Of a stretch of 64,000 nt of DNA, positions 54,423 through 59,790 are shown piece after piece (the first letter of the stretch is position 1; each line of letters opens with the position of its first letter). Source of the DNA: Dietzia aurantiaca (GTDB lineage: Bacteria > Actinomycetota > Actinomycetes > Mycobacteriales > Mycobacteriaceae). A program made the translations under genes and the position numbers. The stretch lies in contig NZ_JAIFXZ010000003.1 of NCBI RefSeq assembly GCF_021033825.1, positions 1-64,000 of the forward strand. The letters run 5' to 3'. The notes below the pieces were generated by a model that saw nothing but the letters and a program-made list of their open reading frames with translations, did not search any database and was not told the DNA's origin.

Positions 54423-54965
54423 ATGCCCCACCACGACGCCCGCCGATCCCTCGCCGCCGCATTCGTGGTGGTCACCCTGACCACGGTCGGGTGCTCGACC
54501 GGCGCATCCGGGAAGGAGGAAACGGCTGTGGGGTCGGACGCCCCGGCTACGTCGAGCTCCTCGCCCTCGCCATCGACCGGGCCGCCGTCGACCGGGCTGA
54601 CGGCGTCGTCGTCGACCCCGTCGCCACGTCCTTCGTCGCCCGCACCGGCCCCCGCCACTCCGCCGTTCGTCGCGTCGGCGACCTGGGGCGACTCCGACTT
54701 CGGGGTCACCCTTCGCGTGGCACCGACACCCTCGGCGCTCCGGGCGACCGGCCCCGCCGACGCGGCCACGGCCTGGGCCGAGGTGCTGCGCCTGGCCCCC
54801 GACGCGGACACCCCCGGCATGCGCGAGCAGTTCGACTGCCACTGGACCTGGGCGCGGCTGCTCGAGCCGGACAAGCCCACGTGGAACCTCGAACCGTGGC
54901 GGCCCGAGGTGACGGCTGACGTGATGCTGCTGGAGGGCTGCAATCCGGGAGGGCCGGAGGTATGA
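54423..54965 (+). CDS. DUF2599-type lipoprotein
   Basis: The 180-residue exported lipoprotein has signal and lipobox TVGCS. A Ser/Thr/Pro-rich linker (about 27-80) follows, then a domain with SATWGDSDFGVTLRVAPTPS, DADTPGMREQFDCHWTWARL and KPTWNLEPWRPEV, ending LEGCNPGG. This agrees with DUF2599 as I remember it, a secreted family of Mycobacteriales with no assigned role; two Cys in the domain may form a disulfide. The stop overlaps the hydrolase gene by 4 bp. Confidence 0.82.
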   Translation: MPHHDARRSLAAAFVVVTLTTVGCSTGASGKEETAVGSDAPATSSSSPSPSTGPPSTGLTASSSTPSPRPSSPAPAPATPPFVASATWGDSDFGVTLRVAPTPSALRATGPADAATAWAEVLRLAPDADTPGMREQFDCHWTWARLLEPDKPTWNLEPWRPEVTADVMLLEGCNPGGPEV

Positions 54966-55789
54966 CGACGACGAGGTCCGCGCACACCGGCGCCGACGGG
55001 GACGGGGCGGGCCTGGCCCGCGATCTCCGGGGCGTCGGGACCCCGGTGGTGCAGCTGCACGGACTGTCCTCGAGTCGGCGCCGCGATGAACTGTGGGGCC
55101 TGGACCTCACGGCGGGCCGGGAGGGACTGCGCGTCCTGCGTTATGACGCGCGCGGCCATGGCCGGTCGCCCGGATCGCCCGATCCGGCCGCGTACACGTG
55201 GCCCGCGCTCGCCGGGGACCTGCTGGGACTGCTCGACGAGGTCTTCCCCGGCCGCGCGGTGCACGGGGTGGGCACGTCGATGGGGACGGCGACCCTGCTC
55301 ACGGCTGCCGTGGCCGAGCCGGCGCGGTTCGCCTCCCTCACGCTGGGGATCCCGCCGACCGCGTGGGAACGGCGCGCGGAGCAGTCGAAGCTCTACGAGC
55401 TGGGCGCGCGGCAGGTGGCGCGGTGGGGCGTGGCCCGGTGGGCGGAGCTGACCCACCGGCCGCCCACCTCGCCGGCGATCGACCCGGACCGCCCGTTCCT
55501 GCCGCCGGATGTGGCGGACGAGTGGCTGCCGGCGGCGTTCCGGGGCGCGGCGGCCTCCGATCTTCCGTCGCGGGACGAGGTGTCGCGGCTGACGATGCCG
55601 GTTCTGCTGCTGGCCTGGCCGGACGACGCCTCGCATCCGCTGGAGGTGGCCGCGGAGCTGGCGGGGCTGCTGCCCGATGCACGCCTCGAGGTCGCCCGCT
55701 CCCCGGCGGAGGTCGAGGCGTGGCCGCGGGCGGTGTCGGACTTCATCGAGGGCCTCACTGACGAGACCGGAGCAGCCCCGCCCCGGTAG
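54962..55789 (+). CDS. Alpha/beta hydrolase
   Basis: The 275-residue alpha/beta hydrolase has VVQLHGLSSSRRRDELWGLD, LRVLRYDARGHGRS, nucleophile VHGVGTSMGTATLLTAA (GTSMG) and acid region MPVLLLAWPDDASHPLEVA. The usual late GH pair is replaced by SPAEVEAWPRAVSDFI, so the catalytic histidine is not obvious. It resembles 3-oxoadipate enol-lactonase-like enzymes. It is coupled to the DUF2599 gene and overlaps the convergent PAS-LuxR gene by 35 bp. Confidence 0.85.
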   Translation: MTTTRSAHTGADGDGAGLARDLRGVGTPVVQLHGLSSSRRRDELWGLDLTAGREGLRVLRYDARGHGRSPGSPDPAAYTWPALAGDLLGLLDEVFPGRAVHGVGTSMGTATLLTAAVAEPARFASLTLGIPPTAWERRAEQSKLYELGARQVARWGVARWAELTHRPPTSPAIDPDRPFLPPDVADEWLPAAFRGAAASDLPSRDEVSRLTMPVLLLAWPDDASHPLEVAAELAGLLPDARLEVARSPAEVEAWPRAVSDFIEGLTDETGAAPPR

Positions 55790-56507
55790 CGCGGGTGGCC
55801 ACCGCGGCGCGACTACGGGCGCCGAGCCTGGTGATAATGCGGCTGACGCGGTCCTTGACCGTGTGCACGCTCAAGTGGACCCGGTCGGAGATCTCCTGGT
55901 TGGAGTAGCCGTCGGCGATCAGGGCGATGATCTCGAGATCGTCCTGCAGCCCCATCACGCGCGCCGTCTCGAGCTGGAGCGAGCTCTCCACGGCGTCGAG
56001 CGCCTGTTCCGTCCGCCCCGGGTCACCGCCGGCGCGGCCGACCATGAGGTTGAGGCGTCGGTAGACCTCGAGCGCGGCGCGCTGCTGCTCCTCGAGGAGT
56101 TCCAGGCGCCTGGTCTTGGTGGCCAGGTTCGCCTGGAGTCGGCGCAGCTCGGTCATGTCCCGGCCGACGCCCTGCCGGCCGACCAGCCGGCCGTCGCGGT
56201 AGATGTTCCCGGCGTGGATCTCCAGGTCGCGGAGCTGGCCGTCCGGCTGCAGGATCCGGGTCTCGAAGTAGCGTCCCGGGTCGGCGCTGGCCATCCCCAG
56301 TCGGAAGTGCTCGACGGTCTCCGCGAGGGCGTCGGGGTCGATGACCTTGGAGAAGTGCTCGCCGATCAGATCCGCGACGTCCCAGCCGAAGATCCGCTCG
56401 CCGGCGGGGTTGATGTAGGTGAACCTGCCGTCGGTGTCGACGGCGTAGACGATATCCGCCAGGCGGGCCAGGAGGTCCCGATAGTCGAGGGACGGATCGT
56501 CGTGCAT
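55755..56507 (-). CDS. PAS-LuxR regulator
   Basis: The 250-residue regulator has a PAS domain (about 8-125, with DIVYAVDTDGRFTYINPAGE and a PAC segment GRQGVGRDMTELRRL). A coiled-coil linker (about 122-150) and a LuxR/GerE helix-turn-helix follow (about 185-245, LIADGYSNQEISDRVHLSV and HTVKDRVSRIITRLGARSR). It probably senses a small ligand or redox state and acts on DNA. It is divergent from the fadD gene with a 173-bp spacer and is the likely regulator of it. Confidence 0.9.
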   Translation of the reverse strand: MHDDPSLDYRDLLARLADIVYAVDTDGRFTYINPAGERIFGWDVADLIGEHFSKVIDPDALAETVEHFRLGMASADPGRYFETRILQPDGQLRDLEIHAGNIYRDGRLVGRQGVGRDMTELRRLQANLATKTRRLELLEEQQRAALEVYRRLNLMVGRAGGDPGRTEQALDAVESSLQLETARVMGLQDDLEIIALIADGYSNQEISDRVHLSVHTVKDRVSRIITRLGARSRAAVATRATGAGLLRSRQ

Positions 56508-56638
56508 CAGCCCAGGCTACGGCAGCGTGCGTGTCCGACCCGGCCTGCCGGGGCCGGCACCCGTTCGGGTGCTCTTCCACGACCTCCGGGGGTGTCGCCG
56601 CGCCCGCGAACTGGCCGAGAATGTGAGGCAGACGACAC

Positions 56639-56670
56639 TGCGACGACCCCGACGACCCCGACGACCCCCA
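56639..56670. repeat. Short tandem repeat (CGACGACCCC)n
   Basis: Three copies of the 9-10-bp unit CGACGACCCC lie just before the Shine-Dalgarno of the acyl-CoA synthetase gene. Copy number changes could alter the leader. Confidence 0.7.
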
Positions 56671-56680
56671 GGAAACCACC

Positions 56681-58339
56681 GTGACCTCCACCGCCACCCC
56701 GTCCGTCTCCGCTATCGCCACCCGCCTGGCGGAGTCGGGCACCCTCGCCGACCTGTTCCTCGCCACGGCCGCCGCCCACCCGGACGCGTTCGCGCTCCGC
56801 TCCCACGAGACGGGAGCCGAGGTCACGTACGCACAGGCCCGGGCGCGGGTGGGGGCGATCGCCGGCACGCTCCGCGAGCTGGGTGTGGCCCCGGGCGAAC
56901 CGGTCGCGCTGATGCTGCGCAACCGGCCGGAGTTCCACCTCGTGGACACCGCCGTGATGATGCTCGGCGCCGTGCCGTTCAGTCTCTACAACACGTCGGC
57001 GCCGGATCAGCTCGCCTACGTTCTGGCGGACGCCGGTGTGAAGACCATAGTGACCGAGTCGGCGTTCGTCGAGGTCCTCGAGGCTGCGCGGGGCAATGCC
57101 CTGACAGTGGAGCGGCTCGTCCTGGTGGACGAGAACGCGGACGACCACGACGACCTGCTGGGCGAGTTGGCCGCCGAAGAGACCGGTTTCGACTTCTCCT
57201 GCGCCGAGGCGATCCGCCCCGACGACCTGCTGACGCTCATCTACACCTCCGGCACCACGGGACCTCAGAAGGGCGTCGAGCTGACCCACGAGGGCATGCT
57301 CACGCAGCTTCGCGGGGTCCATGCCGCGGTCCCGCTGCCGGGACACGGGCGTCAGATCTCGTTCCTGCCCGCGGCCCACGTGGCCGATCGCTGGACCTCG
57401 CACTACTCCGGCTTCATGGCCTACGCCAACACGGTGACGTGCGTGGCCGACATGGCGGAGCTGCCGGCCGCGCTCGCGGCCACACGCCCGACCCTGTTCG
57501 GCGCCGTCCCGCGGGTGTGGGAGAAACTCAAGGCCGCGCTCGAGGCGGGCTACCCGGGTGACGCGGTGGCCGACTCCGTCGCGAACCCGCAGGTAGCCGA
57601 GGCGCTGCGGGTCAAGATCGGACTCGACGAGGCCCGCTGGGTCGTGACCGGGGCGGCGCCGACCCCTCGCGGTGTCCTGGAGTTCTTCACAGCTCTGGGT
57701 CTCCCACTGTGCGAGATGCTGGGCATGTCCGAGGTCTCGTGCTGCGTGGCCACCAACACCCCGGACGCCATCAAGCTCGGGAGCGTCGGAAAACCTCTCG
57801 ACACCGTCGAGGTCCGGATCGCCGAGGACGGCGAGGTGGCGGTGCGCGGCCCGCAGGTCATGCGCGGGTACCGCGGTGCGCCGGAGAAGACCGCCGAGGC
57901 GATCGACGGCGACGGGTGGCTCCACACGGGCGATATCGGCCGGCTCGACGAGGACGGGTACCTGTGGATCGTCGACCGCAAGAAGGAGCTGATCATCAAC
58001 GCAACCGGCAAGAATATGTCCCCGGCCAACATCGAGATGGCCGTCCGCTCGGCGGGCAACGCGATCTCCCACGTGGCCGTGATCGGCGATCAGCGCCCCT
58101 ACAACGTCGCCCTGATCGTGGCGGACCCGCAGCGGGCGGGCGACCCGGGACTCGAGGAGACGATCCGGGCGCAGGTCGATCGCGCCAACGCCACGCTGTC
58201 GCGGGTCGAGCAGATCAAGAAGTACACGGTGCTGCGGCAGGACTGGCGCCCCGGTCACGAGCTCACGCCCACGATGAAGCTGCGGCGCCGGGTGGTCGAC
58301 GATCTCTACGCGGCGGAGATCGAGCAACTCTTCGCCTGA
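56681..58339 (+). CDS. Long-chain acyl-CoA synthetase (FadD type)
   Basis: The 552-residue AMP-forming enzyme has ATP site TLIYTSGTTGPQKGVELTHE, GAAPTPRGVLEFFTALGL, and MLGMSEVSCCVATNTP. GWLHTGDIGRLDEDGYLWIV and DRKKELIINATGKNMSPANI follow, the DR and K of the C-terminal lid. It activates fatty acids to acyl-CoA, or to acyl-AMP in some FadD proteins. GTG at 56681 after AGGAAACC is the start. It is divergent from the PAS-LuxR regulator. Confidence 0.93.
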   Translation: MTSTATPSVSAIATRLAESGTLADLFLATAAAHPDAFALRSHETGAEVTYAQARARVGAIAGTLRELGVAPGEPVALMLRNRPEFHLVDTAVMMLGAVPFSLYNTSAPDQLAYVLADAGVKTIVTESAFVEVLEAARGNALTVERLVLVDENADDHDDLLGELAAEETGFDFSCAEAIRPDDLLTLIYTSGTTGPQKGVELTHEGMLTQLRGVHAAVPLPGHGRQISFLPAAHVADRWTSHYSGFMAYANTVTCVADMAELPAALAATRPTLFGAVPRVWEKLKAALEAGYPGDAVADSVANPQVAEALRVKIGLDEARWVVTGAAPTPRGVLEFFTALGLPLCEMLGMSEVSCCVATNTPDAIKLGSVGKPLDTVEVRIAEDGEVAVRGPQVMRGYRGAPEKTAEAIDGDGWLHTGDIGRLDEDGYLWIVDRKKELIINATGKNMSPANIEMAVRSAGNAISHVAVIGDQRPYNVALIVADPQRAGDPGLEETIRAQVDRANATLSRVEQIKKYTVLRQDWRPGHELTPTMKLRRRVVDDLYAAEIEQLFA

Positions 58340-58395
58340 GCGCGGCCTCCGGCCTCCGGTGGCGCGCCGCCGCGGCGCATCCACACAATGGGGCC

Positions 58396-59790
58396 ATGCG
58401 TGAGAAGCAGCGAACGATCATCGACGCCCTGAGGGTCCGGCCCGAGATCGACCCGGCCGCCGAGATCGAGCGGCGGATCCGGTTCCTGGTCGACTATCTG
58501 CACGCGAGTGGGGCCCGCGGCTATGTGCTGGGCGTCTCCGGCGGCGTCGACTCCACTCTCGCCGCCCGCCTGGCGCAGCTGGCCGTGGAGCGCGTGCGCG
58601 CCGACGGCGGCGAGGCGTGGTTCGTCGGGATGCGCCTGCCCTACAAGGTGCAGCACGACGAGGCCGACGCGGCGGCCGCCGTGGAGTTCATCGGCGCCGA
58701 CGAGGTGCTCACCGTCAACGTGGCGCCCGGCGTCGACGCCCTCGACACCGAGATCGCCCGGGCCGCGGGCGCAGAACTGACGGACTTCACCAAGGGCAAC
58801 GCCAAGGCCCGCCACCGGATGGTCGCCCAGTACGCGCTGGCCGGGGACCGGGGGCTGCTGGTGATCGGCGCGGACCACGCGGCGGAGAACGTCACCGCGT
58901 TCTTCACCAAGTTCGGCGACGGCGCCGCGGACGTCCTGCCGCTGTCCGGCCTGGACAAGCGCCAGTGCCGAGCGCTGCTCCGGCACCTGGACGCCCCGCG
59001 CCAGCTGTGGGCCAAGGTCCCCACCGCCGACCTGCTCGATGAGAACGTCGGGCAGACCGACGAGGACGAGCTCGGCCTGCGTTACGACGACATCGACGAC
59101 TACCTCGAGGGCCGCGACGTCCCGGACGCGGCGGCCGAGCGCATCGAGGCGGCGTGGGACCGGGGCCGCCACAAGCGCACCATGCCGGTCGCCGCGTCCG
59201 ACACGTGGTGGCGCCCCGGGCCGCCGACCGCGCTCGCGGTGATCGACATGCAGAACTCGTATTTCGAGTTCCCGGACCTGGCGAAGGTGCGCGACGAGCT
59301 GGTCGCGCGCGTCAACGAGCTCATCGCCGCCGCCCGCGGCGCCGGCCGGCCCGTGGTGTTGGTGCGGACCGAGCACGCCCGTGACGGTTCCACGTGGACC
59401 CTCAACATGTGCGACGACGACGAGGGGTTCGCTTTCCCGGGAACGGAGCAGGCCCAATTCCTGGACGGCCTGGACACCGGCGAGCATGTGGAGGTGGTCA
59501 AGACCCGCGACAGCGCGTTCTTCAAGACCTCGCTCGCCGCCGAGTTGGCCCGGCTGGGGGTGGACCACCTGCTGCTGTGCGGCGTCTCGACGCACAGCTG
59601 CGTGTCACAGACCGCGATCGACGGGTTCGCGGAGAACGTCCACATCGCGGTGGCGCGCGACGCCATCGCCTCGGATGACGCCGCGCTGTCCGCCGCGCTG
59701 CTGGAGTTCCTGGCCGACCAGATGCGCCAGCCGATCATCGATCAGTCGGCGGCCCTGGAGCTGCTCCGGACCGGCGACTGGCCGGACTAG
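58396..59790 (+). CDS. nadE: NAD synthetase fused to a cysteine hydrolase
   Basis: The 464-residue single frame has two complete domains. Residues 1-270 are an ammonia-dependent NadE: LGVSGGVDSTLAARLAQL (SGGxDST P-loop), KGNAKARHRMVAQYALAG, GADHAAENVTAFFTKFGDG, VPTADLLDENVGQTDEDELG and closing HKRTMP. Residues 273-464 are an isochorismatase-like hydrolase with Asp284 (VIDMQNSYFEF), Lys369 (VVKTRDSAFFKTS) and Cys402 (GVSTHSCVSQT), an intact triad. NadE amidates nicotinate adenine dinucleotide using NH3. Hydrolases of the second family often release NH3, so the fusion may supply it. Mycobacteria instead use a glutaminase-NadE fusion. Shares CTAG stop with pirin. Confidence 0.93.
   Translation: MREKQRTIIDALRVRPEIDPAAEIERRIRFLVDYLHASGARGYVLGVSGGVDSTLAARLAQLAVERVRADGGEAWFVGMRLPYKVQHDEADAAAAVEFIGADEVLTVNVAPGVDALDTEIARAAGAELTDFTKGNAKARHRMVAQYALAGDRGLLVIGADHAAENVTAFFTKFGDGAADVLPLSGLDKRQCRALLRHLDAPRQLWAKVPTADLLDENVGQTDEDELGLRYDDIDDYLEGRDVPDAAAERIEAAWDRGRHKRTMPVAASDTWWRPGPPTALAVIDMQNSYFEFPDLAKVRDELVARVNELIAAARGAGRPVVLVRTEHARDGSTWTLNMCDDDEGFAFPGTEQAQFLDGLDTGEHVEVVKTRDSAFFKTSLAAELARLGVDHLLLCGVSTHSCVSQTAIDGFAENVHIAVARDAIASDDAALSAALLEFLADQMRQPIIDQSAALELLRTGDWPD

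Follow-up and report, generated by a model that had tools for sequence, protein, structure and literature searches.

NAD synthetases (NadE) have been sorted by whether a nitrilase glutaminase is fused to them, clustered with them, remote or absent (De Ingeniis 2012, PMC3376133). In what that survey of about 940 genomes reports on genome context, no novel non-orthologous ammonia subunit for NadE emerged, and clustering followed by fusion is proposed as the route to the nitrilase glutaminase domain (PMC3376133). The synthetase domain of the fused, glutamine-dependent enzymes (type F) has an extended C-terminal interface loop (PMC3376133), and an ammonia tunnel is described for a glutamine-type NAD synthetase (PMC6946656).

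The window analysed here is a stretch of 64,000 nucleotides of Dietzia aurantiaca (genome G000, 3.77 Mb, 37 contigs), and its gene at 58396..59790 (+ strand) joins a NadE domain to an isochorismatase-fold hydrolase. Like type F, this gene has NadE fused to a putatively amide-splitting, possibly ammonia-supplying domain, and a clustered gene pair is the likely forerunner of both (for type F as proposed in PMC3376133), but the type F partner is a nitrilase (PF00795). In the fusion only PF02540 and PF00857 were found and no PF00795, while six of six glutamine-type proteins yield PF00795 in the same scan; there the nitrilase is N-terminal, whereas the partner in Dietzia is C-terminal. By its predicted domain content, the fusion is not a glutamine-type synthetase. 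Its NadE is, unlike type F, of the single-domain ammonia type, aligning end to end with single-domain NadE, with the hydrolase match starting 5 residues on. The two-subunit type C enzyme of Thermus thermophilus, with NadE and an amide hydrolase made from neighbouring genes (PMC3376133), resembles the unfused pairs described below, but its partner is of a different family, and the two actinobacterial genes share 4 bases where unfused and form one gene in Dietzia. The ammonia-dependent NadE proteins (PRK00768; structure 2pz8 and others) have a full-length domain matching the NadE part of the fusion from end to end, and the C-terminal hydrolase and the status of a mostly extra copy are features of the fusion. 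A NadE-isochorismatase fusion was not found in the open-access papers searched, where "NAD synthetase" and "isochorismatase" together returned nothing, with or without "fusion", and "nadE" and "isochorismatase" co-occur only in a Staphylococcus/air-pollution context.

The fusion gene and its predicted parts

The gene runs from an ATG start to a TAG stop as one stop-free frame which translates to 464 aa, and the fusion rows displayed in the alignment share the same start Met. Residues 1-272 (58396..59211, + strand) make up an ammonia-type NAD synthetase domain according to Pfam PF02540 and NCBIfam NF001979. In the end-to-end alignment with single-domain NadE structures, such as 2pz8 (NadE of B. 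anthracis), this part ends at WW, near the end of a full-length NadE. The original prediction, made from the letters of the DNA, had called the domain a complete ammonia-type NadE, and the score on NF001979/PRK00768 bears this out (366.1 bits against a cut-off of 250, model positions 2-265 of 266), as does the Pfam match (NAD_synthase, residues 24-264, 3e-59, near full profile length). In an alignment of 40 rows, S48, G50, D52 and S53 of the PP-loop SGGVDS (residues 48-53, 58537..58554, + strand) and 61 other NadE positions are invariant in 40/40. The domain is thus predicted to be an ammonia-type NAD synthetase.

Between the domains lies a short linker (residues 273-277, 59212..59226, + strand), and the stretch from WW to the first hydrolase strand is short and variable between species in all 16 fusion rows of the junction listing, being longer than 5 residues in several other Dietzia. 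The phase of G+C by codon position is unchanged across the junction. The model of the whole fusion protein has a pTM of 0.60, too low to judge the domain arrangement or a tunnel.

The isochorismatase-fold cysteine hydrolase domain (residues 278-464, 59227..59787, + strand) is supported by Pfam PF00857, by a structure model and by PDB matches. The Pfam match (Isochorismatase, residues 278-444, 7e-33, 114.6 bits against a cut-off of 27) extends near the full profile length, in agreement with the earlier claim of a complete isochorismatase-like hydrolase, and Asp284, Lys369 and Cys402, also named beforehand, are all in place. These predicted catalytic residues (59245..59247, 59500..59502 and 59599..59601, respectively, all + strand) are conserved in 40 of 40 family rows, each with Cys at Lys + 33 residues; three outgroup rows (L159-L161), two departing in the triad and one in the spacing, were set apart from these 40. 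A conserved stretch around STWxxNM is also seen in the family rows.

The model of residues 273-464 has a mean pLDDT of 96, and its top match in the PDB comparison is a Desulfovibrio isochorismatase-family protein (Z 26.1), with further close matches to maleamate amidases, RutB, triuret/biuret hydrolases and N-carbamoylsarcosine amidase; the names of several of these denote ammonia release from an amide or ureide. Isochorismatases and nicotinamidases score no more than about 3 Z units away in that comparison, which therefore picks no substrate; at best the modelled fold gives the hydrolase a chemistry class. A Cys-containing triad points to amide hydrolysis and ammonia release in the named relatives. 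Maleamate amidase Ami/NicF, RutB, TrtA, BiuH and N-carbamoylsarcosine amidase share the fold of the fusion hydrolase and, presumably, also its D-K-C triad with the 33-residue spacing, but the known isochorismatase-like amidases are only 18-27% identical to it over the fold, and the STWxxNM stretch is its own family's. No cut-off of a named NCBIfam family is reached (RutB 36.6 bits vs 378, BiuH 22.3 vs 370, YecD (PRK11440) 64.8 vs 195). By analogy with these relatives, we infer a D-K-C cysteine amidohydrolase acting on a small amide or ureide, a half that probably splits ammonia off a small amide.

Recurrence of the fusion in Dietzia

A search for the same domain pair in other genomes, proposed together with the original claim of a single-frame fusion, found the full-length fusion in 15 of the 23 Dietzia genomes examined (G000, G001, G002, G003, G005, G007, G008, G009, G011, G012, G015, G017, G018, G019, G021); as the fused frame recurs in this way, chance or a single sequencing error is excluded. 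In one more genome (G004) the fusion is cut by a contig end, in one it is frame-broken, and from six (G010, G013, G014, G016, G020, G022) it is absent. The frame-broken copy belongs to the Dietzia intestinipullorum MAG G006 (L014:6001-7420 and L077), whose NadE part occupies one frame while its hydrolase part is spread over two others, and represents either a broken fusion or assembly errors of the MAG. Another MAG (G005) has two full-length copies on contigs C10 and C165, by duplication or from mixed strains.

Both halves of the fusion are under purifying selection, judging by pairwise dN/dS. Comparing the window gene with 11 other fusions gave 0.20-0.34 for the NadE part and 0.22-0.34 for the hydrolase part, and five further close fusion pairs gave 0.10-0.24 and 0.11-0.54, respectively. 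In 15 of the 16 comparisons both domains fall within 0.10-0.34, the exception being the hydrolase of L003/L008 (0.54, at a dS of 0.15).

A standalone NadE is also present in 14 of the 15 genomes with the full-length fusion (the exception, G017, is 78% complete), and that of G000 reaches 379 bits on the ammonia-type model. In 14 Dietzia, PF02540 gives 1-2 matches each, which are the standalone protein and, where present, the fusion; therefore these 14 are without a glutamine-type NadE. The five family-f48 genomes with an unfused pair, described below, all encode a NadE of the glutamine-dependent type, carrying a CN_hydrolase domain; a further ammonia-type NadE lies elsewhere in the genome of at least G382 and G425. 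The fused or paired NadE is thus mostly an extra copy (counted over the 15 full-fusion genomes and the five f48 pair genomes).

At E <=1e-25 the hydrolase was found in 17 of 401 genomes of the wider family (16 Dietzia and one other, with 46% identity) and in 16 of 394 genomes of the class, and at E 1e-45 in 15 of 396 genomes of the order of G382. Such a distribution fits a gain by transfer into Dietzia. In the window, an alpha/beta hydrolase gene lies at 54962-55789 and a pirin gene adjoins the fusion site; in G014 and G020 that pirin gene is followed by that alpha/beta hydrolase gene, 80 and about 790 bases apart, respectively. In these two pirin loci the fusion, the acyl-CoA synthetase-like gene and the PAS-LuxR gene all went without a match, and therefore the intervening block is missing there. 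What is jointly absent corresponds to 55755-59790 of the window, with a PAS-LuxR regulator, an AMP-binding (acyl-CoA synthetase-like) gene and the fusion.

Three other settings for the gene were considered and rejected. The fusion protein (P0001) matched 0 PADLOC families of antiphage defence, no relative was found among viral contigs, though two stretches matched a pattern, and none of the 337 plasmid records with a match reached 80% coverage of the query.

Unfused pairs and separated partners

As separate but adjacent genes, nadE and the hydrolase gene occur in one MAG of the Propionibacteriaceae (L015) and in five family-f48 genomes (G382, G425, G426, G427, G428). All 6 pairs show a 4-base overlap between a start codon of the hydrolase frame and the nadE stop (GTGA in five, TTGA in one), where the hydrolase start is an assignment and alternative start codons exist in frame; one of the six pairs (G425) has a decayed nadE. 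Overlaps of this kind usually mean translational coupling, and the unfused pairs would accordingly be translationally coupled.

The fusion is real, conserved and of one clade: in trees of 43 NadE rows and of 69 hydrolase rows (of 70 chosen, one being filtered out), the fused rows form a single clade, with support of 100/99 for NadE and 99/93 for the hydrolase. Fused and paired rows, together with some single genes, also fall in one supported clade per tree (99/99 and 95/98, respectively). On the NadE tree the pairs require two changes and on the hydrolase tree a single one, when ungrouped rows are left uncounted. An adjacent, overlapping nadE-hydrolase pair is therefore the likely forerunner of the fusion, and the existence of unfused pairs with a 4-base overlap strengthens the functional tie between NadE and the hydrolase. 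Among the non-Dietzia loci there was no convincing other fusion of the hydrolase, and the long open frames upstream of it mostly miss its codon-position G+C pattern.

The hydrolase is also found apart from nadE. Among 50 hydrolase loci, only five have nadE within about 1.5 kb; to judge by the other 45, a linked NadE is not needed for the hydrolase to work. In family f6 the hydrolase occurs in 85 of 245 genomes at E 1e-30, with nadE nearby in 0 of 29 hydrolase loci; the nesting of named Kocuria loci among f6 members in the tree makes Micrococcaceae the probable identity of this family. In the reverse direction, no hydrolase was found within 6 kb of the close NadE relatives of Agilicoccus (L016) and Propioniciclava (L017), nor in the flanks of L018 and L020, which are shorter than 6 kb.

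Four genomes of one f48 genus (g134) have all retained the hydrolase. Beside it, nadE is intact in G382 and decayed in G425, and in G423 and G424 none was found. The nadE of G425 (L126:587-1471) has lost the PP-loop Asp, lacks a stretch before the C-terminal end and scores 225.6 bits against the cut-off of 250; beside it the overlapping start codon persists and the hydrolase is intact. Another ammonia-type NadE is encoded elsewhere in all four genomes, with 55-62% identity to the fused and paired NadEs compared, so the g134 hydrolase does not sit in NadE-free cells. That this other NadE is the lost partner, relocated, was considered and rejected; with such identity, and with its presence in G382 beside the intact pair, it is more likely a separate copy. 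This copy (L242-L245), ammonia-type and unpaired, is a third type of NadE beside the glutamine-type one and the nadE-hydrolase site, and several NadE copies per genome seem usual in g134. The 45 of 50 nadE-free loci and the loss of nadE in g134 speak against an obligate ammonia subunit.

Recurrent neighbours of the 50 hydrolase loci include an FAD-dependent oxidoreductase (8), Ku (7), GAF-ANTAR (5) and, more rarely, DUF3618 (4), PRC/DUF2382 (3) and a ferritin-like protein (3); ten selected neighbours were taken for naming, nine of them with a Pfam match. They hint at a stress or dormancy setting. A Ku-like gene lies near the hydrolase relatives L191, L196, L197, L199, L204, L209 and L212 (one of the seven named by Pfam, the rest by similarity to that one). 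In G024 (L109:3574-10062), a hydrolase relative stands between a LacI-type regulator gene and urease-like genes, as named by eye; a urease link of the hydrolase was rejected, as UreA and UreC matches occur in the locus of this one genome only.

Possible roles of the joined domains

The best explanation we can offer, held tentatively, is a bifunctional enzyme with a local ammonia supply to an accessory NadE. The N-terminal half would act as an accessory ammonia-dependent NAD synthetase (NaAD + ATP + NH3 -> NAD), the C-terminal D-K-C amidohydrolase would split a small amide or ureide and free ammonia beside the synthetase, and NadE would thereby rely less on the free ammonia of the cell. The fusion may have arisen through a frame change that joined an adjacent, overlapping nadE and hydrolase gene in an ancestor of the fusion-bearing Dietzia. 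Ammonia release by the hydrolase and its use by NadE are proposed, and local supply, as the most economical function, is our best idea on the grounds of analogy with the chemistry of relatives and of the gene coupling. The hydrolase is hence a candidate non-nitrilase ammonia subunit for NadE. That it would be a second, independently invented ammonia-supplying domain, with an isochorismatase-fold amidohydrolase passing ammonia from a non-glutamine amide to a fused or co-made NadE, is a stronger statement that we consider rather unlikely, albeit worth keeping.

Co-production without ammonia transfer, for a shared condition such as stress or dormancy, is almost as likely as local ammonia supply, and we regard it as a serious possibility: the hydrolase would remove or use an amide metabolite, the accessory NadE would refill the NAD pool, and the fusion would be a by-product of an overlapping pair with a lost stop codon. 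It is consistent with a fused or paired NadE that is mostly additional to another NadE, with a hydrolase that is kept where the neighbouring nadE decays, and with the recurrent FAD-dependent oxidoreductase, Ku, GAF-ANTAR and other neighbours among the 50 hydrolase loci, although these neighbourhoods are those of relatives and not of Dietzia, and no neighbour occurs in more than 8 of 50 loci. Against it stand the 4-base overlap in all six pairs and the conservation of the fusion, which suggest a need for equal amounts of the two proteins or for contact between them.

Improbable on the evidence at hand is a recycling of nicotinamide, in which the hydrolase would be an unusual nicotinamidase whose ammonia is returned to NaAD by NadE, with PncB and NadD between; one ammonia released and one consumed would balance. 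The fusion is the sole PF00857 match in G000, G008 and G019, while PncB is over the cut-off of TIGR01513 in all 16 genomes examined, 10 of which are Dietzia, and one metal-motif His of the nicotinamidases aligns with a His of the family rows. However, Asp-x-His and WPxH are present in 5/5 PncA-like rows, whereas in three family rows the Asp is replaced by Thr and WPxH is absent. The Lys-Cys spacing, which the original prediction had held to be unlike that of nicotinamidase, is indeed 33 in the hydrolase against 42 in all five nicotinamidase-like proteins of other genomes. On these motifs and this spacing a canonical nicotinamidase is unlikely, which weakens the nicotinamidase route of the earlier idea of a link to NAD salvage. 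On the PncA model NF008623 the hydrolase reaches 21 bits, compared with 87-135 bits for the PncA-like proteins, but the test is weak, because these also fall below the cut-off of 174. Furthermore, a PncA-like protein distinct from the hydrolase is found in the pair genomes G382, G425 and G426, and PF00857 matches nothing in the Dietzia genomes G014, G016 and G020, so that this nicotinamidase function is not required in the genus. In G000, PncB is present although the fusion is the only PF00857 match. PF04095 (0/9 Dietzia) had suggested that Dietzia lost the salvage of nicotinate, which was rejected, as TIGR01513 finds PncB in every genome searched. Pyrazinamidase or nicotinamidase phenotypes of Dietzia were not evident in the open-access literature.

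A sequencing or assembly artefact joining two genes has a negligible chance: unfused overlapping pairs do exist in other lineages, so that one frame error could fuse them, but the in-frame fusion in 15 of 23 genus genomes and a linker that differs between species reject this refutation, which the original prediction had itself named.

Returning to local ammonia supply, single-domain NadE has been held to use free ammonia partly because the genome survey, in its account of genome context, found no non-nitrilase partner (PMC3376133). Since a conserved overlapping or fused amidohydrolase is the sort of candidate that the survey sought, the question of ammonia supply becomes testable with one protein. 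The Dietzia case repeats, with a fold unrelated to nitrilase, the route of clustering and then fusion that is proposed there (PMC3376133). If the ammonia is passed on, two unrelated folds would have taken the same path to the same task; if it is not, the pair would point to an amide metabolite tied to a spare supply of NAD.
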